Assembly: GCA_905221505.1 (NCBI GenBank)
Contig: CAJNDL010000003.1
Coordinates: 8,142 to 72,141 of the forward strand
Length of the DNA stretch: 64,000 nucleotides
Origin: a bacterium
GTDB taxonomy: Bacteria; Bacillota; Bacilli; Lactobacillales; Streptococcaceae
Reading direction: 5' to 3'
This document shows, one piece after another, positions 17,562-51,257 of this stretch. The notes under the pieces were generated by a model that saw only the letters and a list, made by a program, of their open reading frames with translations, was not told the origin of the DNA and did no database searches. Numbering within the stretch: the first letter of the stretch is position 1; each line of letters begins with the position of its first letter. A program made the translations under genes and the position numbers.

Positions 17562-18385
17562 CAGTCCCTCCTTTGACAGTTTGGACAAAAGTGGGTGCCT
17601 CGTCCACCTAGTTGGATTTTCTCAATCACAGTTCCGCAACGTGAACATTTTTGACCAGCCTTATCATAGACCTTATGAAAGTCCTGCATGGTTCCATCTT
17701 CCCCAAAGGCATTGGTATAGGTCCGAATGGTAGAGCCGCCTTTTTCAACGGCCTGACCCAAAACAGCAATGGTCTGGTCATGAATGGCTGTTACTTCTTC
17801 TGCCGTCAAAGTTTGCGAAGGTCTAGCTGGATGAACATGAGCTCGCCAGAGAACCTCATCCACATAGATATTGCCAAGACCAGCTACCAAGGTCTGGTCT
17901 AAAAGGTGGGATTTGATAGGCTTTTTAGACTTAGCTAGGTCAACTTGAAAGACCTGTAAATCAAAGTCTTGCTCCCTTGGTTCAGGCCCTAATTTCTTAG
18001 AAATAAAGTAGGTGTCCAAAAGATCAGGAGACAATAGTTCCATAGTCCCAAACTTGCGTACATCCTCATAAACAAGCGTGCCACCGTCTTCAAACTGGAA
18101 GAAAACATAGGCATGCTTACGTTCAGGAACCTGGTCTGGATAGTAAAAATACTTACCCTCCATCCGCAGATGAGAAATCAAGACCTTGTCGGTCAGGTAA
18201 AAAAGCAAGTATTTGCCACGACGTCCCATGGACTCAATTAACTGTCCAGACACTTCCTTTTGAAACTCGTCCAGATCTGTCTTAATCATCTTGGGATAGC
18301 GAATTTCTATTCTCGAAATTTTCTTACCTAGAATCAATTTTTCCAAGCCACGACGAACGGTTTCAACCTCAGGTAATTCAGGCAT
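17561..18385 (-). CDS. mutM: Formamidopyrimidine-DNA glycosylase (Fpg)
   Basis: Base-excision repair glycosylase/AP lyase that removes 8-oxoguanine. 274 residues when started at MPELPEVETVRRGLEK, giving the required N-terminal Pro-Glu catalytic pair after methionine removal. Also shows HLRMEGKY (catalytic lysine loop), the H2TH region (LLDQTLVAGLGNIYVDEVLW) and a C-terminal zinc finger (CSRCGTVIEKIQLGGRGTHF, then CPNC). An upstream ATG at 18427 would add 14 residues and bury the catalytic proline, so it is rejected. Confidence 0.96.
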   Translation of the reverse strand: MPELPEVETVRRGLEKLILGKKISRIEIRYPKMIKTDLDEFQKEVSGQLIESMGRRGKYLLFYLTDKVLISHLRMEGKYFYYPDQVPERKHAYVFFQFEDGGTLVYEDVRKFGTMELLSPDLLDTYFISKKLGPEPREQDFDLQVFQVDLAKSKKPIKSHLLDQTLVAGLGNIYVDEVLWRAHVHPARPSQTLTAEEVTAIHDQTIAVLGQAVEKGGSTIRTYTNAFGEDGTMQDFHKVYDKAGQKCSRCGTVIEKIQLGGRGTHFCPNCQRRD

Positions 18386-18433
18386 AAGTCCTCCTTCTGT
18401 AAAAACAAGAAGCAGGCATGAGCCCACCTCTAC

Positions 18434-19333
18434 TTAGTATTCTTTTTCATTATAGCCAAAGTCAGCCAAATCTAGCTTTTTATCGCGCCAGTTTTTCTTG
18501 ACCTTGACCCATGTTTCTAGGAAGACCTTGTCCCCTAGCATGAGTTCAATATCACGACGGGCCATACTACCAATTTTCTTAAGCATAGCGCCACCTTTAC
18601 CGATGATGATCCCTTTCTGACTATCGCGCTCAACCATAATAGTTGCACGGATGTGCACCTTGTCTGTCTCTTCGTCACGTTTCATAGAGTCAACCACAAC
18701 GGCAACTGAGTGCGGAATCTCTTCACGCGTTAGGTGCAAGACTTTCTCACGAACCATTTCTGAAACCAAGAAACGTTCTGGATGGTCTGTGATTTGATCA
18801 GACGGGAAATATTGGAAACCTTCGTCCAGATTTTCACTCAAAATATCCACTAGACGAGACACGTTATTTCCCTGAAGGGCTGAGATAGGAACGATTTCCT
18901 TAAAGTCCATTTGATTACGGAAGTCATCAATCTGAGACAAAAGCTGGTCTGGGTGGACCTTATCAATCTTGTTCACCACCAGAATCACAGGGACCTTGGC
19001 AGCCTTGAGACGCTCAATAATCATGTCATCCCCCTTACCACGCGCTTCATCAGCAGGCACCATAAAAAGAACAGTATCCACTTCACGAAGGGTGCTGTAG
19101 GCAGACTCAACCATGAAATCTCCAAGAGCTGTTTTAGGCTTGTGAATCCCTGGCGTGTCGATAAAGACGATTTGCTCCTTATCGGTCGTGTAAATTCCCA
19201 TGATTTTGTTGCGCGTTGTCTGCGCCTTGTCACTCATGATGGCAATCTTTTGCCCCATAACGTGATTCAAAAAAGTTGACTTCCCAACGTTGGGACGTCC
19301 TAAAATGGCTACAAAGCCTGATTTAAATGTCAT
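18434..19333 (-). CDS. era: GTPase Era
   Basis: Ribosome-assembly GTPase that binds the 3' end of 16S rRNA. 299 residues. G1 [10 protein letters not shown]3 DTPG ([11 protein letters not shown]), G4 NKID, then a C-terminal KH domain ([34 protein letters not shown]). It sits between dgkA/ybeY upstream and mutM downstream, the standard order in streptococci. Confidence 0.97.
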
Positions 19334-19349
19334 AATTTCCTCTTACTGT

Positions 19350-19745
19350 TTAAAATATTAAATCCCAGATTCGTGGGAGAAAAATCAATGCGCCTGTTAA
19401 GGCTGCGAAAAGAGAGACCACTAGCACCGCGCCAGCCGCCATATCCTTGGCATTTTTAGCTAGCATGGAAAAGTGATAATGACTGGCCAAATCCACCACA
19501 TTTTCAATAGCAGAGTTGATAATCTCAAAGGCTACTACCAAGAAAATGCTCAATAGGAGAAAGAGCCATTCGATTCGTGACACCTGAAAAACAAAACCTG
19601 CGAAGATGACCACTAGAGCCGTCACTGCATGTTTTCGCATATTGCGTTCTTCCTTGATGGCAGTAAAAATTCCTGTGAGGGCAAATTCTAAACTGGATAT
19701 CAGGTCACGATTTTTCCATTTTCGTTTATTGTCTTGTGAGTCCAT
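19350..19745 (-). CDS. dgkA: Diacylglycerol kinase / undecaprenol kinase
   Basis: 131-residue membrane kinase with three hydrophobic helices. The family active-site region [13 protein letters not shown] is present near residue 75-87, and a conserved [18 protein letters not shown] near residues 27-44. Gram-positive members phosphorylate undecaprenol or diacylglycerol for lipid recycling. Its start overlaps the 3' end of ybeY by 20 bases. Confidence 0.93.
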
Positions 19746-20223
19746 AGGCTGTCAAAATTTCTTCTTGTAAACCGAACATCTCCGCTTCTTCTTCTGGAGT
19801 GTAGTGATCATAGCCGTTGATATGTAAAAAGCCATGTACTGCCAAAAAGCCCATCTCACGCTCAAAGCTGTGGCCATATTCCTCAGCCTGCTCATGAGCC
19901 TTATCAATAGAGATGAACAATTCCCCAATATAGGCATCAAACTCAGACATCATCTCTGCTAATTCCGGATTTTCAAGCAAGTCCTCTTCGTCAAAGGCAA
20001 TTTCCAACTCTGGTTTATACTCAAGGCTGATGACGTCTGTCGGACGGTCCGTGTCACGGTACTCCAGATTGAGTTCATGACTACGCTCATTGGTCACAAA
20101 AGTGACTGCCATCTCCTTGTCTTCTTTGCCTAATTTTTGAGCTGCAAATTCCAAAATTTCTTGGGTTTGTTGCAACATTTCTTTTGAAACTTGACCAGTT
20201 TCATCTACCATTTCAATATACAT
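19726..20223 (-). CDS. ybeY: Endoribonuclease YbeY
   Basis: Metal-dependent RNase for 16S rRNA maturation and ribosome quality control. 165 residues. The zinc motif [11 protein letters not shown] (HxxxHxxxxxH) lies near residue 130-140, preceded by [20 protein letters not shown]. First gene of a ybeY-dgkA-era-mutM-coaE-pmrA operon; ybeY and era act in the same rRNA pathway. Its promoter is divergent from that of pavA. Confidence 0.95.
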
Positions 20224-20252
20224 GTGCTTCTCGTTTCTCTTTACTTGGCTTT

Positions 20253-20261
20253 ATTATACCA
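20253..20261 (-). promoter_or_regulatory. Extended -10 promoter of ybeY operon
   Basis: Minus-strand TGGTATAAT, with TATAAT at 20253-20258. The -35 region is weak. Back to back with the plus-strand pavA promoter. Confidence 0.6.
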
Positions 20262-20288
20262 CATTTCCATGATTTTATTCTACCTTTT

Positions 20289-20297
20289 TGATATAAT
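20289..20297 (+). promoter_or_regulatory. Extended -10 promoter of pavA
   Basis: TGATATAAT with TATAAT at 20292-20297, 31 bases before the pavA ATG and its AAGGAGAG ribosome site. Confidence 0.6.
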
Positions 20298-20327
20298 ACT
20301 ATGGAATACAATCACAAGGAGAGAACG

Positions 20328-21983
20328 ATGTCATTTGACGGATTTTTTTTACACCACATGGTTGAGGAATTGCAAAAAGAGTTAGTGAACGGTCGCATTC
20401 AGAAAATCAATCAGCCTTTTGAACAAGAGTTGGTCTTGCAAATCCGTAGCAATCGCCAAAGCCATCGCCTGCTCCTTTCTGCCCATCCAGTTTTTGGACG
20501 CATTCAGCTGACCCAAACGACTTTTGAAAATCCAGCCCAACCCTCTACCTTTATCATGGTTTTGAGAAAGTATTTGCAGGGAGCCCTGATTGAGTCGATT
20601 GAGCAAGTGGAAAATGACCGTATTGTGGAAATCACGGTTTCCAATAAAAACGAGATCGGAGACCATATCCAGGCTACCTTGATTATCGAAATCATGGGTA
20701 AACACAGTAACATTCTACTGGTTGATAAAAGTAGTCATAAAATCCTCGAAGTTATTAAACACGTCGGCTTTTCACAAAATAGCTACCGCACCTTGCTTCC
20801 TGGATCAACCTATATCGCTCCGCCAAGTACCGAATCTCTCAATCCTTTCACGATCAAGGACGAGAAACTCTTTGAAATCCTGCAAACACAGGAAACGACA
20901 GCTAAACATCTTCAAAATCTCTTTCAAGGTCTGGGACGCGATACGGCAAATGAATTGGAAAACATTCTGATTAGTGATAAACTGTCCACTTTCCGTAGCT
21001 TTTTCAGTCAAGAAACCAAGCCATGCTTGACAGAGACTTCTTTCAGTCCAATTCCTTTTGCAAATCAAGTAGGAGAGCCTTTTACTAGCCTTTCTGACTT
21101 GCTGGACACCTACTATAAGGACAAGGCTGAACGGGACCGCGTCAAACAGCAAGCTAGTGAACTCATTCGTCGTGTTGAAAATGAACTTCAAAAAAATCGA
21201 CATAAGCTTAAAAAACAAGAAAAAGAGTTACTAGCGACAGACAATGCTGAGGAATTTCGCCAAAAAGGCGAATTGCTGACAACCTTCCTCCACCAAGTGC
21301 CTAACGACCAAGACCAGGTTATCCTAGACAACTACTACACCAACCAACCTATCTCAATTGCGCTTGATAAGGCCTTGACTCCCAACCAGAATGCCCAACG
21401 CTACTTTAAACGTTACCAGAAACTCAAAGAAGCTGTCAAATACTTGACTGATTTGATTGAAGAAACCAAGGCAACCATTCTCTATCTGGAAAGTGTAGAA
21501 ACGGTCCTCAACCAAGCCGGACTGGAAGAAATCGCTGAAATCCGTGAAGAATTGATTCAAACCGGCTTTATCCGCAGAAGACAGCGAGAAAAAATCCAGA
21601 AACGCAAAAAACCAGAACAGTATCTTGCCAGTGATGGCAAAACCATCATCTATGTCGGACGAAACAACCTGCAAAATGAGGAGCTAACCTTTAAAATGGC
21701 CCGCAAGGAGGAACTTTGGTTCCATGCAAAGAACATTCCTGGAAGCCATGTTGTCATCTCTGGCAATCTTGACCCATCTGATGAAGTCAAGACAGACGCA
21801 GCAGAGCTGGCCGCCTACTTCTCTCAAGGTCGCCTGTCAAATCTTGTTCAGGTAGATATGATTGAAGTCAAAAAACTCAACAAACCAACTGGTGGAAAAC
21901 CCGGCTTTGTCACCTACACAGGACAAAAGACCCTCCGTGTCACACCAGATCCAGAAAAAATCGCATCTATGAAAAAATCCTGA
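20328..21983 (+). CDS. pavA: Fibronectin-binding protein PavA / RqcH-like NFACT protein
   Basis: 551 residues from MSFDGFFLHHMVEEL; AAGGAGAGAACG precedes this ATG. It has an NFACT-N domain (residues 1-240), a central coiled coil (about 270-430, rich in K/E: RRVENELQKNRHKLKKQEKE), and the NFACT-R domain at the C-terminus (NEELTFKMARKEELWFHAKN, then IPGSHVVI). Pneumococcal PavA binds fibronectin and is needed for virulence, while the RqcH/Rqc2 family adds C-terminal alanine tails to stalled nascent chains on 50S subunits. It has no signal peptide, which favours the ribosomal role as ancestral. Upstream in-frame ATG at 20301 is not used in the family. Confidence 0.94.
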   Translation: MSFDGFFLHHMVEELQKELVNGRIQKINQPFEQELVLQIRSNRQSHRLLLSAHPVFGRIQLTQTTFENPAQPSTFIMVLRKYLQGALIESIEQVENDRIVEITVSNKNEIGDHIQATLIIEIMGKHSNILLVDKSSHKILEVIKHVGFSQNSYRTLLPGSTYIAPPSTESLNPFTIKDEKLFEILQTQETTAKHLQNLFQGLGRDTANELENILISDKLSTFRSFFSQETKPCLTETSFSPIPFANQVGEPFTSLSDLLDTYYKDKAERDRVKQQASELIRRVENELQKNRHKLKKQEKELLATDNAEEFRQKGELLTTFLHQVPNDQDQVILDNYYTNQPISIALDKALTPNQNAQRYFKRYQKLKEAVKYLTDLIEETKATILYLESVETVLNQAGLEEIAEIREELIQTGFIRRRQREKIQKRKKPEQYLASDGKTIIYVGRNNLQNEELTFKMARKEELWFHAKNIPGSHVVISGNLDPSDEVKTDAAELAAYFSQGRLSNLVQVDMIEVKKLNKPTGGKPGFVTYTGQKTLRVTPDPEKIASMKKS

Positions 21984-22006
21984 TTCGACTTGAAATCAGG
22001 ATTTTT
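21972..22006. terminator. Bidirectional terminator between pavA and lytB
   Basis: Hairpin AAATCCTGATT / AATCAGGATTT with A tract before and T tract after; the pavA stop TGA lies in the left arm. It can end both the plus-strand pavA and minus-strand lytB transcripts. Confidence 0.8.
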
Positions 22007-22010
22007 AGCT

Positions 22011-22033
22011 TATACTCTTCGAAAATCAAATCC
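22011..22033 (-). repeat. BOX-C end remnant
   Basis: TATACTCTTCGAAAATCAAAT matches the terminal part of the BOX at 43548-43570 in reverse orientation. Only this end is left, so it is a relic. Confidence 0.5.
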
Positions 22034-22043
22034 AATTATAGGA

Positions 22044-23756
22044 CTAATCTTTGCCACCTAGTTTCTCATTGATTTTCATCATCACACTAGCAATTTTCTC
22101 GCCCCAATAAGGGTCTGAGGCATATTCCACATTCATACCAGTTGCCTTGTTTCCAAGGAAAGTTCTACCCCTATCGATATAATTTTCCTTAATCCACTTG
22201 GTTGCACCTAAAATTCCCTTATCCACATCATCAAATGTCTTGGCAGAAAGGTAAGGGGTCGTATCATAGGCTGTAATTCCAAAGAAATTATTCTTATCTT
22301 TGGCAATCTTACTTCGTCCCCAATCACTTTCTAAGGCACTATGGGCAAGGAGATAGAGAGCATTGATATGGTAATGTTCTTCGGCTTCCTTAAAGGTAGC
22401 GCCCTTGTTCTCCAAGAGGCTATTGTTAATGTTTAGCAGACTAAATACCTTATCCAAGTCTTCAGCACTGTAGTTTGTAGCCTCTGTTAAATCTTTGAAA
22501 AGGAAGGGATTTTCAAGCTTAAAACCATCAAAATGCAGGCCATCTGCCGAATAATATTTCTTGCCTACTTCCATATCAGGAAGATGAGAAGCTACTGGAA
22601 TACTAGCATTCTGAGCCACATAGTGATAAAAACGGTGGCCATCACTTTCATAATAAGGGATAAAATCCTTACTAGCATCTAGTGCTTGTAAATCTTCTGT
22701 TTTCATATAGCCTGACAAACCAGAAATAGTAATAGCCAGGCGTTTGTCATCACTCTTTCTGTCCTTATCAAGCCAGACGACACTACCTTGCGATATATAG
22801 GATAGCTTTTCACCATCTGCATTATAAACATTTGCTGTGACAGGTACTACTTGATAGTAAGCAGCATTTTCATTTGTAGCTTTTTCTACAAGCCATTTAC
22901 CGTCTCTTCCAAGCTGATAACCATCTACTGTCTCATTTTTCGCCATGTAGCCACCAGATTTGAAGTAGTACCAGGCTTGACTTTTAGCATCGTATAGCCA
23001 TTCTTTCTCAGCCATTTTACCATCAGATTTGAGGTAAAACCATGACTCTTTATCCCAAATCCATTCATTGGCTGCCATATAGCCACCGGATTTTAGATAA
23101 TAATAGCGACCATTATCAAAAATCCATTCTTTATCAGCATGATTCCCATTTTCTTTAATGTAAAACCAAGATTGGTATTGTTTGTCAAAAAGCCAACCTT
23201 GCTGTACTTTGGCACCACTAGCATTCACATAAGCCTGGTCAATCCACTGACTTGTCAGTAAATAACCACCAGATTTGAAATAATAGTCCTTCCCTTTGAT
23301 TTGGAGCCATTCTTTCTCTGCGTGCTGTCCATCTGCTTTGATATAAAACCAAGCATCGTATCGAGAATCATATACCCAATCTTCTATTACCTTGGCACCT
23401 GTAGCACCAACATAGGAAGTTCCTAGCCAAGCATTTCTTTTCATCTTTCCATTTTGGTCAAGATAATAGAAGGCTCCCTTGTCTTCTACCCATTCTGATT
23501 TTGCCATATAGCCACCAGATTTTAGATAAAAATAGTCGTCACCTTGTTTTAGCCATTCATTTTCAGCATAGTTGGCATCTGCTTTGATATAAAACCAAGA
23601 TTGATAATGAGCATCAAAAACCCACTCATTAGCTGCTTGACTGCCGTCTGCTTTCAGGTATTGTTTTCCTTGCCAAGTACCATCACTGGCCATTGCACTC
23701 TCTGGTCTGACTAAGAAAAATAGCAGGGCTAAAAAAATAAATCTTACTTTCTTCAT
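22044..23756 (-). CDS. lytB: Choline-binding endo-beta-N-acetylglucosaminidase LytB
   Basis: Secreted peptidoglycan hydrolase that separates daughter cells at the poles. About 570 residues from MKKVRFIFLALLFFLVRP with signal peptide ending near SAMA. Roughly a dozen choline-binding repeats (W-F/Y-Y-L/I-K-x-G patterns such as YYLKSGGYMA and SWFYIKADG) fill residues 25-290, followed by an SH3b-like domain and a C-terminal GH73 glucosaminidase domain with catalytic Glu near 476 (HSALESDWGRS). Repeats first, catalysis last is the LytB arrangement. The number of repeats is lower than I recall for pneumococcal TIGR4. An upstream ATG at 23813 has no support. Confidence 0.93.
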   Translation of the reverse strand: MKKVRFIFLALLFFLVRPESAMASDGTWQGKQYLKADGSQAANEWVFDAHYQSWFYIKADANYAENEWLKQGDDYFYLKSGGYMAKSEWVEDKGAFYYLDQNGKMKRNAWLGTSYVGATGAKVIEDWVYDSRYDAWFYIKADGQHAEKEWLQIKGKDYYFKSGGYLLTSQWIDQAYVNASGAKVQQGWLFDKQYQSWFYIKENGNHADKEWIFDNGRYYYLKSGGYMAANEWIWDKESWFYLKSDGKMAEKEWLYDAKSQAWYYFKSGGYMAKNETVDGYQLGRDGKWLVEKATNENAAYYQVVPVTANVYNADGEKLSYISQGSVVWLDKDRKSDDKRLAITISGLSGYMKTEDLQALDASKDFIPYYESDGHRFYHYVAQNASIPVASHLPDMEVGKKYYSADGLHFDGFKLENPFLFKDLTEATNYSAEDLDKVFSLLNINNSLLENKGATFKEAEEHYHINALYLLAHSALESDWGRSKIAKDKNNFFGITAYDTTPYLSAKTFDDVDKGILGATKWIKENYIDRGRTFLGNKATGMNVEYASDPYWGEKIASVMMKINEKLGGKD

Positions 23757-23786
23757 TAACCTTCTTCCTCTGTTCTTATTTATTTT

Positions 23787-23795
23787 ATTGTACCA
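23787..23795 (-). promoter_or_regulatory. Extended -10 promoter of lytB
   Basis: Minus-strand TGGTACAAT (TACAAT 23787-23792), about 30 bases before the lytB start; -35 is not clear. Confidence 0.45.
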
Positions 23796-23854
23796 AAATT
23801 CTCTTAAATTCATATTACAAACTAATAAAAAATCAAGAACAGATTGATTGCACC

Positions 23855-25604
<1,750 letters not shown>

Positions 25605-25642
25605 GACTTTTCCTCCTTAAATTTTAAGGGGCTCAGATAAAG

Positions 25643-25765
25643 AAAAAACCTTGCGATTGCAAGGCCTCAGTTAAAATCGTACAAAACAAGAGAGCACACT
25701 CAAATAGTCTCCTCTAGAAAATTGTACTATTCTTTTATCTGACACCTTGTGAGTCTCTCTGGACT
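25643..25765 (-). promoter_or_regulatory. PyrR-dependent attenuator of pyrK-pyrDb
   Basis: On the minus strand the PyrR RNA-binding motif AGTCCAGAGAGACT (25752-25765) is followed by the antiterminator region and by a terminator hairpin CCTTGCAATCGCAAGG with TTTTTT (25643-25664). When UMP is abundant PyrR binds the first hairpin and lets the terminator form. Confidence 0.85.
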
Positions 25766-25789
25766 CCCCTTAAAGGTTAAATTTTTATT

Positions 25790-25818
25790 AGTATACTCTT
25801 TCAGCTAAAAAAAGTCAA
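25790..25818 (-). promoter_or_regulatory. Promoter of pyrK-pyrDb, with -35 inside a terminator repeat
   Basis: Minus-strand TTGACT (25813-25818) and TATACT (25790-25795) with a 17-base spacer. The -35 lies within direct-repeat copy 1, whose hairpin and T tract also form a terminator. Confidence 0.75.
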
Positions 25819-25842
25819 GTAGAAAACGAACATTCTACTTGA
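25804..25842 (-). repeat. 39-bp direct repeat, left copy (terminator + -35)
   Basis: Identical over 39 bases to 27824-27862. On the minus strand it forms hairpin AAGTAGAA / TTCTACTT followed by GACTTTTTTT. Here it terminates the HEPN gene and supplies the pyrK -35. Confidence 0.95.
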
Positions 25843-25853
25843 TTTGTGATCGA

Positions 25854-27287
25854 TTAAACAATTTGTAAATTATCAGATTCACCAATAAACTTATCTAAGT
25901 CTCTTATAGAAGTTTGAATTTTTACTACCCTTCCATTCCACTTATCTTCAAAACTGACTATCACTTCACAGCAATTGGTGTCAAATTTAAAGTTTCCATG
26001 AGAAATAGCATTTCTAATTTTTGTACAGATAAATTCTTTATCTAAATCATGAGTTATCTGTTTCTGATCACCAAATTTTAAATAATAATCATTGGAGAAA
26101 TTAATCATATCCTGAGCATCATACACAAAGTTTGAAATATCAAATTTGCTATAATCAAGTTCGGGTAGGTCATCATCCTCTAACCTTAAGGCAAAATTGA
26201 ACATTTTTAAAATTGTAAACATGTAGCGGAAAAATATTATCGAATCTGAGTCCTCTTGCAATTCATCCAAACTTCTCGAAATATCATCTCTGCCCTCTTC
26301 TAATTTCCCTTTCGAGCAAAGAGTAAAATAATTTATAATCCTATCGTTCAATTGTCGTATATGCACGAAGAAGTTTGATATTTCCGTCTCTGGATCACAG
26401 AGGGCTTTGTAAAGATATGGTAAATGTTTCTTATCTCCTCTCTCCTTTTTGATTATATTATTAAGCACACTAATTTTTTTCGAATCTAATATCTGCTCTT
26501 CAACTTTAAAATCACTGGAGTTTAAGAAAACATCCATTTTTTGAAAACCACATTCATTATCTATATCTGATTGATAATCTAAAAACTGATTCATAGGATG
26601 AATCTGCCCAGGGATATATTTAACTGATTCATTTACAAAGGTTACTACAGTAAAAACAAGATATGGTTTATGCTTATGTTCCTTGAAAGAAAAATTACTT
26701 ATGAATGAATGTTTATATGGTACCCCTAAGACAGATTGATTTGAGTAATATCGACTAATAAATTCATGTATCACAGGCTCTAACGCAATTCCCGTGTTTT
26801 TTAGTTGTCCTCCATCTTTATTAAAAATATCATATAAACTAATTACACCTGGCTCACATAAAAAAAAGTTACCATACTGCATATGCGCGAAAGCATTGCG
26901 TAACCGTACAATCTCATCATAAATATTTCTAGGCTGTGGTTCAGTTTTAATAATAAGATGAGTAAATTCGTCCAAATCAAAGTTGTAATTTCCATTTATG
27001 AAAGTTCTGTACGTTTCATAATTTATTTCCTTTAAAGCCAATTGAAAATTATCAATGTATCTAAATTGCTTTGTTGCCTTAAAATACTCCTTCTCTAATT
27101 TATTTTTATTATATATCATTAAAGAGGCATCAAGAAAGACTCTAAACTTTGAAAATTCAACAAGAGTTAGCTCACCAAAATCCCCATTAAATATTTTTTC
27201 TTTAATTTTACCAATATCAAGTTTATCCTTGTATAGTTTCGATAGTTCTTCAATAATCTTTGCATTACTAATCAAATAGTGCGACAT
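25854..27287 (-). CDS. Putative dual-HEPN ribonuclease, candidate phage-defence (Abi-like) protein
   Basis: I do not recognise this 477-residue protein as a named family. It contains two copies of the HEPN RNase active-site signature RNxxxH: RNAFAH at residues 130-135 and RNAISH at 425-430. Each is preceded by a helical segment, as in two HEPN domains; residues 170-290 between them may be a separate domain (beta-rich pattern around YLVFTVVTFVNESVKYI). No signal peptide or membrane segment. HEPN proteins with such motifs are often tRNA/mRNA-cleaving toxins or abortive-infection effectors. ATG at 27287 has only a weak ribosome site (GTGGATA). It is downstream of a decayed HTH regulator and ends 11 bases before a terminator. 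RNase activity and defence role are inferred. Confidence 0.7.
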   Translation of the reverse strand: MSHYLISNAKIIEELSKLYKDKLDIGKIKEKIFNGDFGELTLVEFSKFRVFLDASLMIYNKNKLEKEYFKATKQFRYIDNFQLALKEINYETYRTFINGNYNFDLDEFTHLIIKTEPQPRNIYDEIVRLRNAFAHMQYGNFFLCEPGVISLYDIFNKDGGQLKNTGIALEPVIHEFISRYYSNQSVLGVPYKHSFISNFSFKEHKHKPYLVFTVVTFVNESVKYIPGQIHPMNQFLDYQSDIDNECGFQKMDVFLNSSDFKVEEQILDSKKISVLNNIIKKERGDKKHLPYLYKALCDPETEISNFFVHIRQLNDRIINYFTLCSKGKLEEGRDDISRSLDELQEDSDSIIFFRYMFTILKMFNFALRLEDDDLPELDYSKFDISNFVYDAQDMINFSNDYYLKFGDQKQITHDLDKEFICTKIRNAISHGNFKFDTNCCEVIVSFEDKWNGRVVKIQTSIRDLDKFIGESDNLQIV

Positions 27288-27359
27288 TATCCACTTTATA
27301 CCCTTCCTAATTTATCTTATATACTTATATTTTATTCCCAAAAACCTTTGTCCGCTCCT

Positions 27360-27666
27360 TTATAAACTCAATCCACTATTGTTTAAAGTTCTTTTTTCTT
27401 CTTCGGCCAATCTTTTTGAGTTCATACGGAAAAGCAATTCAATATTATCTAATTCATCTAATTTTTCTTCTAAGTTTCCAACTAAATAATCAATCGGACA
27501 TATTTAAAACCTTATGCAATCTTAACAAGATTTTATTGTGTTCACACTCCTATAAAGCGTAAACAGGTTGCGAAATACCTAGTTTTTCAGCCACTTCAAC
27601 TTGAGTAAAGATTTCCTTTTTTCTTAGTTCTTTTAAGAGTTCCAAAAATTTCATTTTTAAGCTCAT
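27360..27666 (-). pseudogene. Decayed XRE-family HTH regulator
   Basis: From ATG at 27666 the frame gives MSLKMKFLELLKELRKKEIF, then TQVEVAEKLGISQPVYAL and a TAG stop; helix-turn-helix (Cro/CI type) is clear. Past the stop the similarity goes on (YECEHNKILLRLHKVLNMS) and then shifts frame to IDYLVGNLEEKLDELDNI, ending with TAA at 27360-27362. One internal stop plus one frameshift show loss of function. The preserved pattern, HTH followed by a VGN-type linker and acidic helix, is that of small phage- or element-borne repressors. It probably once controlled the HEPN gene. Confidence 0.75.
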
Positions 27667-27674
27667 AAACACTT

Positions 27675-27743
27675 TTTCAAAAATCTATCGATAAATATAT
27701 CTGTTTTAAAAATAATAATGCTTTAGCATATAGATTTTTGAAA
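27675..27743 (-). promoter_or_regulatory. 14-bp perfect inverted repeat upstream of the decayed regulator
   Basis: TTTCAAAAATCTAT (27675-27688) and ATAGATTTTTGAAA (27730-27743) are exact inverted copies 41 bases apart. The pair lies between a promoter and the regulator start, so it may be an operator pair. Confidence 0.45.
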
Positions 27744-27811
27744 ATTAAATAGAAAGTGCATCTAACAACCAGAGTATTGGCTGTCAGAACTACACTAAAC
27801 TGCGTACCTTC

Positions 27812-27839
27812 ATTATAAATGTTTGCTAAAAAAAGTCAA
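27812..27839 (-). promoter_or_regulatory. Promoter into the HEPN insertion
   Basis: Minus-strand TTGACT (27834-27839) and TATAAT (27812-27817) with a 16-base spacer. The -35 lies within direct-repeat copy 2, the terminator of gloA. Confidence 0.65.
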
Positions 27840-27862
27840 GTAGAAAACGAACATTCTACTTG
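27824..27862 (-). repeat. 39-bp direct repeat, right copy (gloA terminator + -35)
   Basis: Exact copy of 25804-25842. It starts 11 bases after the gloA stop and forms its terminator hairpin. Confidence 0.95.
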
Positions 27863-27873
27863 ACTTCACGAGA

Positions 27874-28254
27874 TTATTTTTCACGAATGACTTCAACCTT
27901 GTAGCCATCAGGGTCTTTGACAAAGTAATAGTTAGGTGCAGTTCCTGGTAAGCCATTTGGTGCAGTCACTTCATAACCTTTTGCACTGTGCTCTTGATGA
28001 AGAGCTTCAAGATCAGGTGTACTGAGGGCGATATGGGCAAACCCATCTCCAACCACATAAGGACCGTGATCGTAGTTATAAGTCAACTCCAACTCATAGT
28101 CGTCACCTTCAAGTCCTAGATAGACAATCGTGAAGGCATGGTCTGGAAAATCTCTGCGACGCAATTCTTTAAAACCAAAAGCATCTTGATAAAATGCGAT
28201 TGATTTTTCAAGATTTTCTACTCGCAAGCAAGTATGTAGCATTTTTGAAGCCAT
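27874..28254 (-). CDS. gloA: Glyoxalase I / lactoylglutathione lyase family protein
   Basis: Vicinal-oxygen-chelate fold enzyme of 126 residues from MASKMLHTCLRVENLEKS. It shows the two beta-alpha-beta modules and metal-ligand positions: His in MLHTCLRV, Glu in YELELTYNY, His in GFAHIALS and Glu in YKVEVIRE. This is consistent with methylglyoxal detoxification, although streptococci lack or vary in glutathione. The longer ORF start (28275) contains the ribosome site AAAGGAGAAAAAT of the chosen ATG, so it is rejected. Confidence 0.9.
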   Translation of the reverse strand: MASKMLHTCLRVENLEKSIAFYQDAFGFKELRRRDFPDHAFTIVYLGLEGDDYELELTYNYDHGPYVVGDGFAHIALSTPDLEALHQEHSAKGYEVTAPNGLPGTAPNYYFVKDPDGYKVEVIREK

Positions 28255-28312
28255 ATTTTTCTCCTTTATTTTCAAAAAGACTGGGACAATCCTGTTCCAG
28301 TCTCATCTGTTA

Positions 28313-28672
28313 TTATTTACCAAGTTTTGCTTTCGCTGCATCTGCAAGAGCTGTGAATGCTGCTGCATCGTTAACAGCCAAGTCAGCAAGCATTTTACGG
28401 TTAACTTCGATCTCAGCCAATTTCAAACCATGCATCAATTGTGAGTATGAAAGTCCGTTCATACGAGCTGCCGCGTTGATACGAGTGATCCACAATTTGC
28501 GGAAGTCACGTTTTTTCTGACGACGGTCACGGTATGCATAGTAGTAAGAGTTCATTACTTGTTCTTTTGCAGTACGGAACAAGATGTGTTTAGCTCCATA
28601 GTAACCTTTTGCTAATTTAAGAATACGTTTACGACGTTTGCGTGATACAACGCCACCTTTAACACGTGCCAT
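28313..28672 (-). CDS. rplT: 50S ribosomal protein bL20
   Basis: 119 residues, standard length; begins [18 protein letters not shown] and contains [19 protein letters not shown] and the C-terminal globular part [19 protein letters not shown]. Third gene of infC-rpmI-rplT. In firmicutes L20 represses this operon by binding its leader. Confidence 0.98.
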
Positions 28673-28723
28673 GTTTTATTTCCTCCAAATATTTCCTAGA
28701 ATTGTTTACTTACAGTCAAGCTA

Positions 28724-28924
28724 TTATTTCAAGCGAGTAAGCATTGCTTTGATACGTTTGTAATCTCCTGAATGCACCATAGATGCTTTACGAAGATGAC
28801 GACGTTGTTTCTTAGTTTTTCCGTGGAAACGGTGAGAAGTGTAAGCACGGAAACGTTTAAGTCCACCAGAACCTGTACGTTTGAAACGTTTAGCTGATGC
28901 GCGGTGTGTTTTTTGTTTTGGCAT
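28724..28924 (-). CDS. rpmI: 50S ribosomal protein bL35
   Basis: 66 residues, [20 protein letters not shown], highly basic, standard length. ATG at 28924 follows AAAGGAGAAAAAATC. Middle gene of infC-rpmI-rplT. Confidence 0.98.
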
Positions 28925-28956
28925 GATTTTTTCTCCTTTATTTAACTTTCTGACAA

Positions 28957-29478
28957 TTATTTTTTGTCAGTCGCTGGCGCCAATTGCATGAACATTTGAC
29001 GTCCATCCATTTTAGCACGTTGTTCGATGATGGCAATATCTTGAGTTGCTTCAGCAAACTCGGCTAAAACTTTTGCACCAATCTCTTTATGGGTAATCAT
29101 ACGACCCTTAAAGCGAATAGATACCTTAACTTTATTTCCTTTTTCAAGGAATTTGCGTGCATTGCGAAGTTTTGTATCAAAGTCACCCTTGTCAATAGTT
29201 GGACTTAGACGAACTTCTTTCACAGTAACAACACTTTGTTTTTTACGTTGTTCTTTTTGCTTCTTCTGGTACTCAAATTTGAACTTACCGTAGTCCATAA
29301 TTTTTGCAACAGGCGGTTTGGCTTGGGGTTGAATCAATACTAGGTCAACATTAGCGTTATCAGCCAAAGCTTGCGCTTCACTGAGTGGCTTGATGCCTAG
29401 CTGTTCTCCTTCAAGACCAATCAAGCGAACTTCACGTACACGAATCTCATCATTGATGAATAAGTCTTGCTTTGCTAT
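28957..29478 (-). CDS. infC: Translation initiation factor IF-3, probable ATA start
   Basis: IF-3 prevents subunit joining and checks the start codon. I start it at ATA (29476-29478), giving about 173 residues beginning (M)[18 protein letters not shown]. The reason is the ribosome site GAGGTGA (29484-29490), perfectly complementary to the 16S tail and ideally spaced, plus alignment with the N-terminus of firmicute IF-3 (SKDFIINEQIRAREVRL in Bacillus). The frame is open up to 29544, with TTG and ATG codons upstream that some annotations use, but they lack ribosome sites. Rare starts (AUU/AUA/AUC) are known for infC and allow autoregulation, since IF-3 rejects them. Confidence 0.93.
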
Positions 29479-29494
29479 GGTTTTCACCTCTTTT

Positions 29495-29640
29495 GTTTTA
29501 TTAGAGAAAAACAATAGCGGACTCGTAAATATACAAGCCCGCACGTTATGATAGCGTTTCTTAGAAACTTTTCATCCGTAGGGCCAGGCAACTTAATGTC
29601 ACAAGGCGAGAAGCTCTCACTTCTGCTTTTCTCAACTTTT
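29495..29640 (-). promoter_or_regulatory. Structured leader of infC-rpmI-rplT with attenuator hairpin
   Basis: About 145 bases between the promoter and the infC coding region. It contains hairpin GCGGGCTTGTA / ACGAGTCCGC (29517-29542) followed by TATTGTTTTTC, a terminator-like end. Its position matches the L20-binding leader known in Bacillus, but I cannot confirm the pseudoknot. Confidence 0.6.
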
Positions 29641-29642
29641 AT

Positions 29643-29671
29643 ATGATACCAAGTTTTCTAGCCCTTGTCAA
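29643..29671 (-). promoter_or_regulatory. Promoter of infC operon
   Basis: Minus-strand TTGACA (29666-29671), 17-base spacer, TATCAT (29643-29648). Confidence 0.8.
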
Positions 29672-29729
29672 GACAAAAAGTTATTTTTTTGAAAAGTTTG
29701 TGTTTGTATTTTGCCTTGATTTCCTAATC

Positions 29730-29761
29730 AAAAAGAGAGAACCAAGTTGATTCCCTCTCTA
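29730..29761 (-). terminator. Terminator after the 29.8-31.6 kb ABC genes
   Basis: Minus-strand hairpin AGAGAGGGAA / TTCTCTCT followed by TTTTT, 34 bases after the permease stop. Confidence 0.7.
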
Positions 29762-29794
29762 TGTTAGTTTTTACTTAGCTTCCCTATAGGAAAA

Positions 29795-30976
29795 CTAAGC
29801 CTTAAAAACTTCTTTTTTACGTGAACTTCCCCATCTTTCGATAAATAGAATCCCCACTAACAAAAGGATAATCAGGCAAGGAAGTAAAACTAGCCCCATG
29901 TCCCAATTTAGATTGACATTATCAATCAGCTTAGGTAATCTTCCAGACAAAATCTCCACTGAACGCAAGTAAGTAAAGGGAATCAGATGTGCAATCCTTT
30001 GAAGAGGCTGGATCGTTTGGATACCAAACAATAAGCCAACAATCCCAATGAGGGAAAGGAAGAGAACAGGCATTTTTTGCTTGAAAAAGTAAGCAATCAA
30101 GTAGACAACTTCCACAATGACGATAAAGGCTAAGAAAGCTAAGAGCAAGCTAGGAAATAACACATCTTGTATCTTTCCAATGGTTACCTCTTGATTCACT
30201 AAGCTATAAATCGGGTAGGGATAATCTAACTGTCCAAAACCACTTATCAGACTTCCCACTAGAAAAGAAAATCCGCTGATTCCGATAAACAGCACAGTTA
30301 CATAACTCACTCCAACTCCAAGAGAGGATATTGCAAATTTCACTTTTGAAAAAGGATATAACTGAGCTGTATCCAGATGATTTTGATATCTTTCTGCGAA
30401 CAGTTGCGTTAGCATAAAAATAATAGCAACCACAAACAAGGTTGGGATGATAGCCTCTAAAATCCAGACAATCTGATCAATCCCGTAGGTCGGAAACTCC
30501 AAAGTATGTGCTTTTATGTTCAAGGGATACAGGGCTTGGTAAATCTTTCGTTGGCGGTCAATCGCCATTTTTAAGTCAGAGCTAGAAGTCGGTTGATTTG
30601 ACATAACTTCATAATTCTTCTCTTCATCTTGCCACTGCAAATAGTAGGCTTCTTTCCAGCGTCCTTCTCTTAACAAAGCCAGAATTTCTTTCTTTTGAGT
30701 CAAAAGATTTTTTTGCGATTCTAAATTAATTTTAGCAATCTGGTATTCCTCCGAGTTGGTATCAGATATTTGGGAGAGTTTCTCTTCATATTCATTGATG
30801 ACTCTCTCATCTTTTACAAGACGAGTTTCCAACTCTCCCTCCAAGCTGTGTGAGTTTGCAGTCTGACTATTAAGATAAAAGGTAACACCGAGTCCAGATA
30901 CAAATAAAGCTAAGATAATCCAGTTTAAGCGACTTTTGAAAACTTTTTTTAATAAAAATAGACTAACATCTTTCAT
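29795..30976 (-). CDS. ABC-2-like exporter permease, function unknown
   Basis: 393 residues. N-terminal membrane segment (residues 15-33, LNWIILALFVSGLGVTF), then a long extracytoplasmic region with a coiled coil (about 45-130, rich in E, K and Q), then five or six further membrane helices from residue ~170 to the C-terminus. This is the layout of ABC-2 type permeases of small efflux or peptide transporters. It starts four bases after the ATPase stop. Substrate unknown; lipid, peptide or drug export are all possible. Confidence 0.7.
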   Translation of the reverse strand: MKDVSLFLLKKVFKSRLNWIILALFVSGLGVTFYLNSQTANSHSLEGELETRLVKDERVINEYEEKLSQISDTNSEEYQIAKINLESQKNLLTQKKEILALLREGRWKEAYYLQWQDEEKNYEVMSNQPTSSSDLKMAIDRQRKIYQALYPLNIKAHTLEFPTYGIDQIVWILEAIIPTLFVVAIIFMLTQLFAERYQNHLDTAQLYPFSKVKFAISSLGVGVSYVTVLFIGISGFSFLVGSLISGFGQLDYPYPIYSLVNQEVTIGKIQDVLFPSLLLAFLAFIVIVEVVYLIAYFFKQKMPVLFLSLIGIVGLLFGIQTIQPLQRIAHLIPFTYLRSVEILSGRLPKLIDNVNLNWDMGLVLLPCLIILLLVGILFIERWGSSRKKEVFKA

Positions 30977-30979
30977 AAA

Positions 30980-31567
30980 CTAAACCTCTTCTATCTTTCC
31001 CCGATGAATGGTTACTACTCTATCGCAGACATCAACCAACTCTTCCTTATAGTGGGAACTTAAAAGAACCAGCTGTTCTTGTCTATCGATTTGTGCTAGC
31101 CTATCAAAAAACTTCTGTCGATAATACTCATCTAAGCCATTTGTAATCTCATCCATAAGCCAGCATTTCGCCTGACTGAGGAAATACATGGCAATCACCA
31201 AGCGTTGCTTCATGCCTAAGGAATACTTGCGAATGGGAAGGCTGATATAGTCAGACATTTCCCAATAGGTAATTTCATCCCCCAAGTTCAGCCCTGACTT
31301 CCAGATGTTTTTGATAAGACGAAGGTAGTCCATCCCACTTAAGTTTCCATCCAGCCATTCAACGCTCTCATAATAAAATAAAGAAGGAGGGGCTGCAATA
31401 TTTCCGCTACTTATAGGAATTAAATTGCTAATGGCGCGGAACAGTGTCGTCTTTCCAGAGCCATTTATAGCAAGAATACCATAAATCCTACCCTTTTCAA
31501 ATGTAAAATCAACATCTTGTAAGATGACTTGTCGCGTTTTTAAGGTCACATGAGTAAGCTGCAACAT
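30980..31567 (-). CDS. ABC transporter ATP-binding protein, small
   Basis: 195 residues, shorter than usual. Walker A GILAINGSGKTTLFRA, signature YSLGMKQRL, and Walker B CWLMDEITNGLDE, where the normal DEP is DEI. Switch histidine in LLSSHYKEELVD. Pairs with the membrane protein encoded downstream. GGAGGGCAAGAT precedes ATG at 31567. It is preceded by a ~300-base leader. Confidence 0.85.
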   Translation of the reverse strand: MLQLTHVTLKTRQVILQDVDFTFEKGRIYGILAINGSGKTTLFRAISNLIPISSGNIAAPPSLFYYESVEWLDGNLSGMDYLRLIKNIWKSGLNLGDEITYWEMSDYISLPIRKYSLGMKQRLVIAMYFLSQAKCWLMDEITNGLDEYYRQKFFDRLAQIDRQEQLVLLSSHYKEELVDVCDRVVTIHRGKIEEV

Positions 31568-31933
31568 ATCTTGCCCTCCTTTTTATCACTCTTGAAAGAT
31601 TAACAACCACCGTTGTAATAATTTATGTCTCTAAAAAATCGTAATTTCAACCACCATCAACGTTATACTCATCATATCTATCATAACGAGACTGTGATAG
31701 TTCGTACTATATTTTCTAATCATACCGATAACTTTTAAGAACGCTTACAATAGATACACTGAACTGAAAAAGGCCAACAATCAAAAATTAACTAATTAAA
31801 CGACTTTTGCTAATTTTTAATGGTTTCATTGCATTTATATAATCGATATTGTAAACACTTTCATTGTATCGTATTTATCATTATTATGCAACAGATTTTT
31901 AGTTTATTTTACTAATATATAACATTTTTCTTC
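31568..31933 (-). promoter_or_regulatory. Intergenic leader of ABC genes; otherwise nothing clear
   Basis: 366 AT-rich bases. A candidate promoter TTGCAT (31886-31891), 17-base spacer, TACAAT (31863-31868) on the minus strand would give a leader of ~290 bases. Near 31599-31665 two CAACCACC motifs lie close together, one inside the inverted repeat AACAACCACCGTTGT. No terminator or convincing gene is seen. Confidence 0.45.
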
Positions 31934-34163
31934 CTAACGAACATTCTCAATCTTCCAACTATTCCAACCTTTAAATCGTATAGCTCCCTGCTGGTCAGTT
32001 CGGTAAACTTTGCTATTGATACCTTCCAGTCGTGTCAAGGTTTCCTGATGGGGGAGTTTCGTTCGATTGTTCTTTCCGACTGAGATGAGTGTAATCTCTG
32101 GTTTGAGTTTTTCTAGGAAAACTGGATGTGTTAAATTTTTAGAGCCATGTTGGCCAGCTTTCAAAACATCCACCTCTAGATCAGGATAGTGCTTCAGCAA
32201 ATCCTTCTCTCCTTTTTCCTCCAAATTTCCTGTAAAAAGAAAGTGCTTATCCAAGAGTTTTCCATACAGAACCAGGGAATCTTCATGACCCCCATCTCCA
32301 ATTTTCCTTGGAGATAGAACTTCTAACTGACTTCCAAAAATTGGCAAGTTGTCTCCTACTGTCACACTACGCACCTTGGTTTGAGTCGCCTGTAGTTCTG
32401 CCACAAATTCCTTCTGTTTCAAACTACCTTTTGACACTAAAATTTCGCCTACATGGAAAGCCTTGGTCACCTCCAACAAATCTCCAACATGCTCCTTGTC
32501 CGTATTTGTCAAAATTAGCTGGTCAATCTTGGCTACTCCTCGACTTTTGAGATAGGGAATCAAGGTTCGTTGAGCATTGCTGGTCGTCGTCTTTTCTTGC
32601 CATTTCTCGTTTTTCTTATCAGACTCTGCCTTGCCACCTACATCTATGAGAATGGTTTTCCCAGTTACATCCCGTAGGAAAAGACTCTCGCCTTGCCCCA
32701 CATCCAACATGGTAATTTCATTTTCCAGTGGATGCTTGGTCAAGAAAAAGAGACCCACAATAAGTAAGCTAAATCCAGCTGCTCTTTTAATATTTTTCCT
32801 CAAATCATAGACCAAAGCTAAAGAAATTAATAGTAGTATCAACAACCATGCATTGGGTTGTCCAAAGACCAGAGGCCTACTTGCCACCTGCGATACTAAG
32901 CGAACAATCTCCTCCAACCATTCAAAAATAAAGTTCAGCTGAATGACTGGATAGAGAAAGGAAAGGGCAAATAAGATAGACAAGAGCGGTAAGAAGACCA
33001 AGTCAAATAGAAAAGGTCAAAAGGATGGACCAAGGCTGAAATTCCGCAAAATAGAAGGATAGAATAGGCAATATGCCCAAAGAAATGACTAGACTTTCTC
33101 TGGCAATAGCCTTAAGCCCCTCCCCTTCTTTGCTGGTCATAGTCAAGATAAAAGCATAGGCGCAGGACAAGGCTCCTCCTGCTGTCAAGAAAAAGTTGGG
33201 CATGACGATAAAGAGGACAAGAACCGTCAGGGCAAAATTATCTAATCCCTTATAGCCATGCTGAGCCAATAGTTTTTGCAAGAGACTACGAATGACCGAT
33301 GCTGAAAACCCTGTCAGTCCCGCATAGATAAGGGAAAAGGGATAAGTCAGCCATTTCAACTTTTCTTGGGTCAAGCCCAATCGCAAGAGAAGTTTCTTAA
33401 ATCCGTCCATGAAAAATCCTACCTGCATACCCGACAATGCAAAGAGGTGGATAATTCCTAGACTGGAATAAAGCTCATTCATCTCCTCAAAATCGGTGCC
33501 CAGATATCCTAGCAAGAGACCTGTCATATAATTGCGCATAGGGTCTGGAAAATGTGTCTTAATCCAAACTACAGCCTTTCGACGTAAACTAGACAGGTTT
33601 TCACCTATATCCCAACTGCCAACTTTTTGAAGTGACTGGATTTTTTTGATAGTAAGCGTCTGGTAAATTCCCTGAGTCTTCAGATAGGCTTGGTAATTAA
33701 AGCCACCAAAATTTCTCTGCCCTTCTGGTTCTGAAAGTTTCCCTTCAAATTCTATCTCATGAAGGTCTGTTAAGGCTTGAAAGGCTTCTTTCTCCTCCTC
33801 GGATTGAAGTTTATAGTAGACTTGAAAAATGCGTCCATCAGACTTGCCACGAAAGGACAGACTGTCACCATTGACCTTAATAGTGTCAGGCAAAATCCGT
33901 ACCCTTTCAACAGAATATGCTAGGTTTTGACTAGCTTGACTCTGTTGCCAATTTTGAAACAGAAACCAAAATCCAAAGACTCCACAAATCACTAGAACTT
34001 TGCCTGCTGATTTCCAAGGAAATTGGATAAAGAGACAGACTAGCAAAAAAACGAAGCCCAACAAAGCAAGATAGGATACTGAGAAAATAGCGTAGTAAAG
34101 CCAGAGTAATAGAAAACTCAGATAAATTAGGGGGATAGGGACATTCTTAATCCACTGTAACAT
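31934..34163 (-). pseudogene. comEC: ComEC/CelB DNA-uptake channel, frameshifted
   Basis: Membrane channel for transforming DNA with a C-terminal metallo-beta-lactamase domain. The reading frame opens at 34163 (MLQWIKNVPIPLIYLSF) and runs 386 codons with the ComEC competence domain (LSSLGIIHLFALSGMQVGFF), then ends early at TGA (33003-33005). The rest continues in another frame from about 33012 to 31934 (DLVFLPLLSILFALSFLYP, then the MBL part LDVGQGESLFLRDV, LILTNTDKEHVGDL). Removing one T from the run of four (33011-33014 on plus: AAAA) restores one frame of about 742 residues, close to the usual length. So comEC is disrupted or the assembly has an indel here. It overlaps comEA by 17 bases. 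Confidence 0.9.
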
Positions 34164-34797
34164 AGTCTTTTAGCTTTTCTATCGTTTTAGCACCAATGCC
34201 AGAGACCTTCTTGAGTTCATCAACCGACTTGAATTTCCCATTTGCCTCACGATGGTCGATAATATCCTGAGCTCGTTTGCCACCCAATCCCTTGACCTGC
34301 TTGAGTTCTTCCAGACTGGCCTTGTTGAGATTGACCTTCCTTTCCTTGCTCGTTGAAGAAGCCGTCCCAGAACCAGTCTGTTGACTAGCTGCTTCTTCTC
34401 CCTTAGTTGGAACGTAAACTAGAGCTTCATCACTAACTTTCTGAGCTAGATTGAGCGACTTGCTGTCTGCTTGCTCTGTCAAGCCACCAGCCTTTTGAAC
34501 GGCATCATTGACTCGACTACCCACTGGCAAGTCATAAATCCCTGGCGATTTGACAGCACCTTTGACATCTACTGTAATCAAATCTTGTTCAAGGGGTTCG
34601 TCCTTCTCTTCCTTGTTCACTTCCTTTTCAGTCGATGAATCCTTGGAAACAGCTGCAACTTCTGTCTGCAAATTCGTTTCTTTGACAGATGTTTGTGGAA
34701 CTGGTTTTAGCAGGAAAAATCCGCCAATAAGCAAGCCCAGAGCAGTACAGATGACGATGATTTTATACTCTTTAATTTTTTCGATAATTTCTTCCAT
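34147..34797 (-). CDS. comEA: Competence DNA receptor ComEA/CelA
   Basis: Membrane-anchored double-stranded DNA receptor for transformation. 216 residues. One N-terminal membrane helix (IIVICTALGLLIGGFFLL), a Ser/Glu/Lys linker, an SLBB domain (ITVDVKGAVKSPGIYDLP) and a C-terminal helix-hairpin-helix pair (LNKASLEELKQVKGLGGKRA and VDELKKVSGIGAKTIEKL). ATG at 34797 follows AGAGAGGAGAAAAT, with a cin-box 20 bases further up. Confidence 0.95.
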   Translation of the reverse strand: MEEIIEKIKEYKIIVICTALGLLIGGFFLLKPVPQTSVKETNLQTEVAAVSKDSSTEKEVNKEEKDEPLEQDLITVDVKGAVKSPGIYDLPVGSRVNDAVQKAGGLTEQADSKSLNLAQKVSDEALVYVPTKGEEAASQQTGSGTASSTSKERKVNLNKASLEELKQVKGLGGKRAQDIIDHREANGKFKSVDELKKVSGIGAKTIEKLKDYVTVD

Positions 34798-34816
34798 ATT
34801 TTCTCCTCTCTTAGAT

Positions 34817-34824
34817 TATTCGTA
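34817..34824 (-). promoter_or_regulatory. cin-box (ComX promoter) of comEA-comEC
   Basis: Minus-strand TACGAATA, 20 bases before the comEA ATG. The T tract of the upstream terminator lies just before it, as the T-rich -25 region does in other late competence promoters. Confidence 0.9.
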
Positions 34825-34832
34825 AGAGGAAG

Positions 34833-34864
34833 AAAAAAACAGTCGAAAAATTTCTTTTCAACTG
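34833..34864 (-). terminator. Terminator after the GNAT gene
   Basis: Minus-strand stem CAGTTGAAAA / TTTTTCGACTG followed by TTTTTTT, ending nine bases before the comEA cin-box. Confidence 0.75.
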
Positions 34865-34865
34865 C

Positions 34866-35435: not shown

Positions 35436-35541
35436 AGGATTCCACCACTTGAAAAGTTTCTAACTAAGATAAGGATATTGAATGAAATATCTAAAAAGCA
35501 AATTTATACTTAGTATTGAGATAACTTTAAGTACAAAATAA

Positions 35542-51016: not shown

Positions 51017-51044
51017 CTTCTACCCCCAACTTCTTTATCTTTTC

Positions 51045-51072
51045 ATTATACCATATTTTAGAAGTTTTCCAA
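51045..51072 (-). promoter_or_regulatory. Promoter of LysR-lspA-rluD-pce operon
   Basis: Minus-strand TTGGAA (51067-51072), 16-base spacer, TGGTATAAT with TATAAT at 51045-51050. Confidence 0.7.
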
Positions 51073-51257
51073 AAAGGAAAAAAGTATGGAAATTTTCAAG
51101 TTTTAATGAAGATTCTAACATTCCAATACAATAATTAGAATAATGTCTTTTTCAGTCATTATCTGTTTTCAAGCAAATAAAAACAGCAAATCCTTTTGAT
51201 TTACCGTTTATAATATGATGCAAGAAAAGCCTCTAACATTTTCTTTTGACCTATAAA

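Follow-up and report, generated by a model that had tools for sequence, protein, structure and literature searches.

A candidate tandem-HEPN protein in an XRE-associated insertion of a Streptococcaceae genome

HEPN RNases are well known and commonly act as dimers. Cas13, the type VI CRISPR effector, resembles the protein described here in having two non-identical HEPN domains in one chain, and is far larger than its 477 residues. Paired HEPN domains are already described for Cas13, Csx1 and Swt1 in the available excerpts of PMC3710099 and PMC12373285, the former of which gives Swt1 and Csx1 a dyad of HEPN domains within one protein, fused, unlike our query, to a PIN or Rossmann-fold domain. 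AbiF/AbiD (Abi_2) is an HEPN RNase with an R-polar-xxxH motif, as in the query; the excerpt of PMC12373285 reports that the Abi_2 family is involved in phage resistance and that AbiF is active as a homodimer and has an antitoxin RNA. The pEK499_p136-like HEPN proteins (PF18736; 'HEPN family nuclease' at NCBI) have an RNxxxH word in common with the query, and both query halves match their profile; the 87 such proteins compared here are at most 222 aa long, whereas the query has two domains fused in ~480 aa and falls below the family cut-off. Some pEK499_p136-like members lie in operons with restriction-modification and Pgl genes, according to the excerpt of PMC3710099.

Two of these systems were considered for the locus and rejected. 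For Cas13, there were no array-like direct repeats at window positions 18000-36000 and no Cas13 match in the family or PDB-sequence searches; for AbiF, neither an Abi_2 match in Pfam nor, in the vicinity of the gene, an abiF RNA from Rfam was found. HEPN RNases and paired HEPN domains are known. No account of the fused pEK499_p136-like form or of its cassette was found among the titles and abstract beginnings listed from the open-licence literature, where a search for composite HEPN sites gave one match, on Cas13bt3, and the excerpt of PMC11514479 does not mention XRE, HEPN or ImmA.

The gene, its two motifs and its relatives

The window, by which we mean the whole 64,000-nucleotide stretch of streptococcal DNA that was analysed, carries an open reading frame whose product a preliminary description had called unrecognised, with two RNxxxH motifs in one 477-residue chain. 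The translation places the motifs exactly where they had been reported, and the query protein indeed had no match in Pfam, PADLOC or NCBIfam; against PHROGs it gave a weak match (E 0.038) to a family of unknown function. The features of the gene are as follows.

25854..27287, minus strand: tandem-HEPN candidate gene, an intact ORF of 477 aa with an ATG start and 20 database relatives
26883..26900, minus strand: motif RNAFAH, residues 130-135; R130 and H135 invariant in 21/21 members, and model helix 122-134 ends there
25998..26015, minus strand: motif RNAISH, residues 425-430; R425, N426 and H430 invariant in 21/21 members, and model helix 415-429 ends there
26688..27287, minus strand: N-terminal half, residues 1-200, predicted first HEPN-like domain (PF18736-type profile match and model)
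25857..26435, minus strand: C-terminal half, residues 285-477, predicted second HEPN-like domain (PF18736-type profile match); relative P0016 exceeds the Pfam cut-off here

Relatives were collected from a database of ~5.8 billion sequences clustered at 90%, giving 12 proteins in a first search and 20 when their alignment served as the query; because this database is searched by shared words, more distant relatives may be missed. Identity to the query was 28-37% for 15 of the 20 relatives and 79-99% for the other five. Across the 21 aligned members (query plus relatives), R130, H135, R425, N426 and H430 were invariant, and N131 was asparagine in 18 members and I, K or D in the remaining three. 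The polar residue that follows R in the Rx4-6H motif of the HEPN superfamily was accordingly present in 20/21 members at the first motif and 21/21 at the second. When the residues of the protein were shuffled 200,000 times, two or more RNxxxH words arose in 0.04% of the shuffles and at least one in 3%. The window has 61 ORFs of 100 aa or more that are not contained in another; two of them have at least one such word, and the tandem-HEPN ORF alone has two. Motif conservation is stronger evidence than this rarity that both words are real.

The family is rare and its distribution patchy. Matches were found in 5 of 284 Streptococcus genomes, one of which (S. peroris) holds a broken copy, and the species named by a scan of genome contigs were S. 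mitis, S. orisratti, S. pseudopneumoniae and S. peroris. The S. peroris copy (L004:9920-11397) is truncated ahead of the second motif and represents a natural broken version. Not all relatives are streptococcal: a faecal phage record carries a copy split across two ORFs, downstream of a phage-type integrase (L012:117-3751), and an IMG/VR contig (L011) carries an open copy of 466 aa. Whether searched with the query, with P0017 or with the S. mitis copy, phage records gave one match, to the same record each time, and viral contigs gave one match with the alignment and none with either of two single proteins. No plasmid record matched (0/72,556; query and P0017 each tried). Searches of 398 genomes of the class and 46 genomes of the class of G880 were also empty (0/398 and 0/46), answers that, coming with no known positive, show nothing.

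Evidence for two HEPN-like domains

We then compared the family with PF18736. This model was matched at E 0.1 or better by 8 of the 21 members, the query not among them, and the six matches whose coordinates were inspected all fell within the C-terminal half. P0016 was the only member seen above the curated cut-off (28.8 vs 26.6 bits, C-terminal half). Precomputed database labels assign PF18736.8 to 14 of the 20 relatives and disagree with the Pfam scan for some, since P0001 is labelled without a match and P0016 is the reverse. Elsewhere, PF18736 gave one match in 147 Streptococcus genomes, below the cut-off and in another kind of protein, and four matches over the cut-off in 398 genomes of the phylum. 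Against NCBIfam, the 21 members returned single weak matches only (four families, one member each; best E 0.015), and against PADLOC they gave JetB, RTasHEPN and Csx1/Csm6 in one member each (best E 0.0063; Csx1/Csm6, E 0.09).

A comparison profile was built from 87 PF18736-type proteins, found starting from four solo proteins. These are 77-222 aa long and contain one R-polar-xxxH word in 77 cases, two in 6 and none in 4. The C-terminal half of our family matched this profile with a probability of 93.7% (E 2e-7) and the N-terminal half with 74.1% (E 2.8e-5), while the middle region, residues 195-300, used as a negative control, reached 0.1%; the two halves also matched each other weakly (33.8%, E 4.3e-4). 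In each of the three comparisons that involved a half, none of 60 column shuffles did as well. When the motif columns were deleted, the matches of the half-profiles dropped to noise (0.6% and 2.7%), so it is the motif region that accounts for the similarity, and homology outside it is weak. By sequence comparison, then, both halves resemble the PF18736 family, the C-terminal half clearly and the N-terminal half more weakly, and the query is best described as related to PF18736 and, being below the curated cut-off, not assigned to it. We also sought the acidic residue of HEPN helix 2. Where the long helix of the C-terminal half ends, E370, D371 and D372 hardly vary among the members, and the N-terminal half has the word NKEK in many relatives and NKNK in the query.

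An AlphaFold2 model of the full protein, built on the 21-row alignment, had a pLDDT of 85.3 and a pTM of 0.89. In the model each half consists of long helices, a helix that ends in the motif (122-134 and 415-429), and then three strands and a helix; the N-terminal half has helices 42-72 and 122-134 ahead of its strands. Both motif helices stop one residue short of the motif histidine. Folded on its own (pLDDT 84.5), the C-terminal half kept its elements in almost the same order, except that two helices replaced the long one. The excerpt of PMC3710099 places the HEPN Rx4-6H motif at the end of helix-3, and the modelled helix-end position of the motif in both halves agrees with that of HEPN domains. 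Solved HEPN structures have a four-helix up-down fold; Foldseek and VIA-align searches of the PDB with the full model and the C-terminal half gave no significant match, and a BFVD fold search with the full model likewise gave none. The matches that were listed look unrelated apart from short helical pieces; no solved HEPN was among them, which excludes nothing. The preliminary description had proposed a doubled HEPN arrangement and suggested a structural model as a check. Of this, the HEPN-type motifs and the doubled arrangement, with both halves matching beyond all shuffles, stood up; homology beyond the motif region is weak, and a match to a solved HEPN fold did not emerge.

These data are consistent with two fused, diverged pEK499_p136-type HEPN domains that would form one effector chain. 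By analogy with Cas13 and AbiF, the two RNxxxH motifs most likely meet within this chain, where they may build a single metal-independent RNA-cleaving site, that is, a pseudo-dimer; because no solved HEPN structure was matched, this shared active site is something we infer. The same family could instead be a homodimeric HEPN enzyme with only one catalytic domain, the second serving a structural role or recognising the trigger. The three substitutions after the first-motif arginine, set against the unvarying RN...H of the second motif, point that way, as do the different contexts of the motifs (HMQY vs HG) and the weaker PF18736 match of the N-terminal half. The invariance of R130 and H135 in all 21 members, however, argues that the first motif is used, and we regard a single catalytic domain as unlikely.

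The insertion and the streptococcal cassette

The gene sits in an AT-rich insert of ~2 kb bounded by a perfect 39-bp direct repeat, with the two copies 2,021 bp apart. GC content is 29.5% in the gene, 29.2% in the insert and 40.5% in the whole window. The features of the insert outside the gene are listed below.

25804..25842, no strand: left copy of the 39-bp direct repeat, a terminator-like hairpin after the HEPN gene and ahead of the pyr genes
27331..27654, minus strand: remnant of an XRE-type HTH regulator with at least one stop and at least one frame change, between the right repeat and the HEPN gene
27812..27839, minus strand: promoter-like TTGACT-16-TATAAT, 11 of 12 consensus bases, with the -35 inside the repeat and the -10 inside the insert
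27825..27863, no strand: right copy of the repeat, after a gloA-like minus-strand gene and with the same hairpin sequence as the left

Relatives of the flanking DNA were matched in 53 of 59 genomes, and the 20 best-matching loci were compared. Nine of these matched the gloA-like side only, and all 11 with both flanks (L013-L022, L029) showed an empty site with one repeat copy and no insert, the single copy being visible in the printed sequence for 9 of the 11. The base composition, the repeat and these empty sites confirm the earlier suggestion of an AT-rich insertion between housekeeping genes. A terminator scan listed the hairpin in the left repeat copy only, though the right copy is identical. 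The promoter-like site was the best of 15 found in the region; chance alone would give 13.5, so the number of sites is not raised and the site is no more than suggestive. The stretch upstream of the HEPN gene folds better than its shuffles (z -3.0); since it also contains the XRE remnant and has no Rfam family, we claim no RNA element there. By eye, an inverted repeat, CAAAAATCTAT...ATAGATTTTTG, lies at window positions 27660-27745, ahead of the XRE remnant, and is a possible operator. An Rfam search of window positions 25500-28700 gave a single match at E 0.1 or better, PyrR: a PyrR binding site (RF00515) at 25637-25780, upstream of the pyr genes, scored 45.1 bits vs a gathering score of 54.

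The regulator remnant has an intact counterpart in S. mitis (L001). In tblastn comparisons, residues 56-91 of the L001 regulator aligned at 72% identity in one frame of the remnant, and its start aligned in another frame, with stops inside. We searched 284 Streptococcus genomes with the insert DNA and found matches in 54, of which all those with E below 1e-6 lay at the XRE end. The surroundings were surveyed in 43 of the 54 matched genomes, the 11 omitted having short, weak matches. Regions of one locus were merged, and any ORF of 130 aa or more lying within 3.3 kb counted as cargo. An XRE ORF was present in 41 of the merged loci and cargo in 35, and an ImmA-like gene formed the end of 32; in 4 of 54 regions no XRE ORF was found. 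A recurring cassette emerged at L045-L097 (for example L050, L051, L052, L056, L063 and L064), consisting of an XRE gene, variable cargo and usually an ImmA-like protease, often followed, by eye, by a second XRE-type gene. The ImmA-like protein contains the word CHELGHF and, across 43% of its length, shows weak similarity (30%) to a phage protein annotated as an ImmA/IrrE peptidase.

By BLAST, 53 cargo proteins, the L001 HEPN included, fell into 33 families; the ORFs were called mechanically, and some distant ones may be ordinary neighbours. A list of 48 cargo ORFs, which leaves out L001, L066, L076, L088 and L090, supplied 40 for a Pfam sample (E 0.001), the eight dropped being near-copies or additional ORFs from loci already sampled. 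Among the best 25 of 29 families, AAA_15 and AAA_21 had five members each, RVT_1, FRG and HNH two each, and AbiH, SIR2_2, DUF4435, PRTase-CE, KAP_NTPase and nSTAND_NTPase5 one each; these are raw counts within the cassette loci. Several of the listed families are well-known parts of antiphage systems. By eye, many cassette cargoes are membrane proteins of unknown kind. The HEPN protein fills the cargo slot both in the window and in L001, with no ImmA-like gene beside it in either. Since the window regulator is broken and the ImmA-like gene is missing from both, neither HEPN cassette is complete.

Other family copies occupy different chromosomal places. In three species (L002, L003, L004) the gene comes immediately after valS, and its start codon overlaps the stop codon of valS. 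In L003 it is followed by a cytosine methylase and a type II restriction enzyme, with near-identical ORFs in L004 by eye, and L004 also has a type IIG-like enzyme before valS; in L002 a Fic gene follows the family copy, and a RhuM-like protein, a specificity subunit and an AAA protein precede valS. A member with an N-terminal SEC-C motif (L009:1498-3039 and L038:10346-11887) lies after a gene that by eye resembles prfC. The defence association suggested for the gene in the preliminary description is thus supported as a setting, both by the cassette cargo and by the restriction-modification neighbours.

The XRE gene invites a different reading, a type II toxin-antitoxin pair of an HEPN toxin and an upstream XRE antitoxin, in keeping with the intact XRE gene of S. 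mitis L001, which ends 6 bp before the HEPN gene. In the window, however, the HEPN ORF has stayed intact, with both its motifs, beside a broken XRE gene, and no XRE gene was seen by eye beside the HEPN gene in five family loci (L002-L004, L009, L011). Moreover, XRE homologues precede many unrelated cargoes, which fits a transcriptional regulator and not a cognate antitoxin. A broken regulator beside an intact effector, together with regulator homologues ahead of so many other cargoes, makes a cognate XRE antitoxin less likely, and we consider such a pair improbable.

A proposed mechanism and its implications

On balance, and with moderate confidence, we favor a standalone, single-chain HEPN pseudo-dimer that would cleave RNA after a trigger and limit phage or mobile DNA, carried as cargo of a cassette. 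The effector would travel as interchangeable cargo of a mobile, XRE-headed streptococcal cassette and, once triggered, would damage RNA and so probably act against phage or other invading DNA. Within this mechanism, what we infer is the composite site, the cleavage of RNA, the trigger and a role against phage. That the protein is instead no RNase, but a helical nucleotide-binding or regulatory protein whose motif words are structural, would suit the want of a matched solved HEPN fold and a homology signal confined to the motif region, and is rendered improbable by the conservation of the motifs, in which R is almost always followed by a polar residue, their modelled position at helix ends, the passage of one relative (P0016) over the Pfam HEPN cut-off, and the mobility and defence-type company of the gene.

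More tentatively, we raise the possibility that a streptococcal cassette with a constant XRE gene and promoter, usually an ImmA-like gene and often a second XRE gene, governs swappable antiphage effectors, one of which would be a guide-free HEPN pseudo-dimer of ~480 residues that independently parallels the paired HEPN core of Cas13. If the pseudo-dimer is real, a small, natural, guide-free single-chain HEPN protein would offer a simple system for studying how two domains share an active site and what activates a fusion of this type, which bears on how Cas13 arose. The cassette could likewise guide the search for further streptococcal defence genes, through inspection of the slot between the constant XRE and ImmA-like genes.

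Two further regions of the window drew our attention. At 22044-23813, a 589-residue protein has repeats that by eye look choline-binding and a C-terminal region that resembles a glucosaminidase. A second AT-rich stretch lies at 51017-51937 (29% GC at 51001-52000), where, by eye, a lipoprotein-like ORF of 136 residues adjoins a LysR-like regulator.
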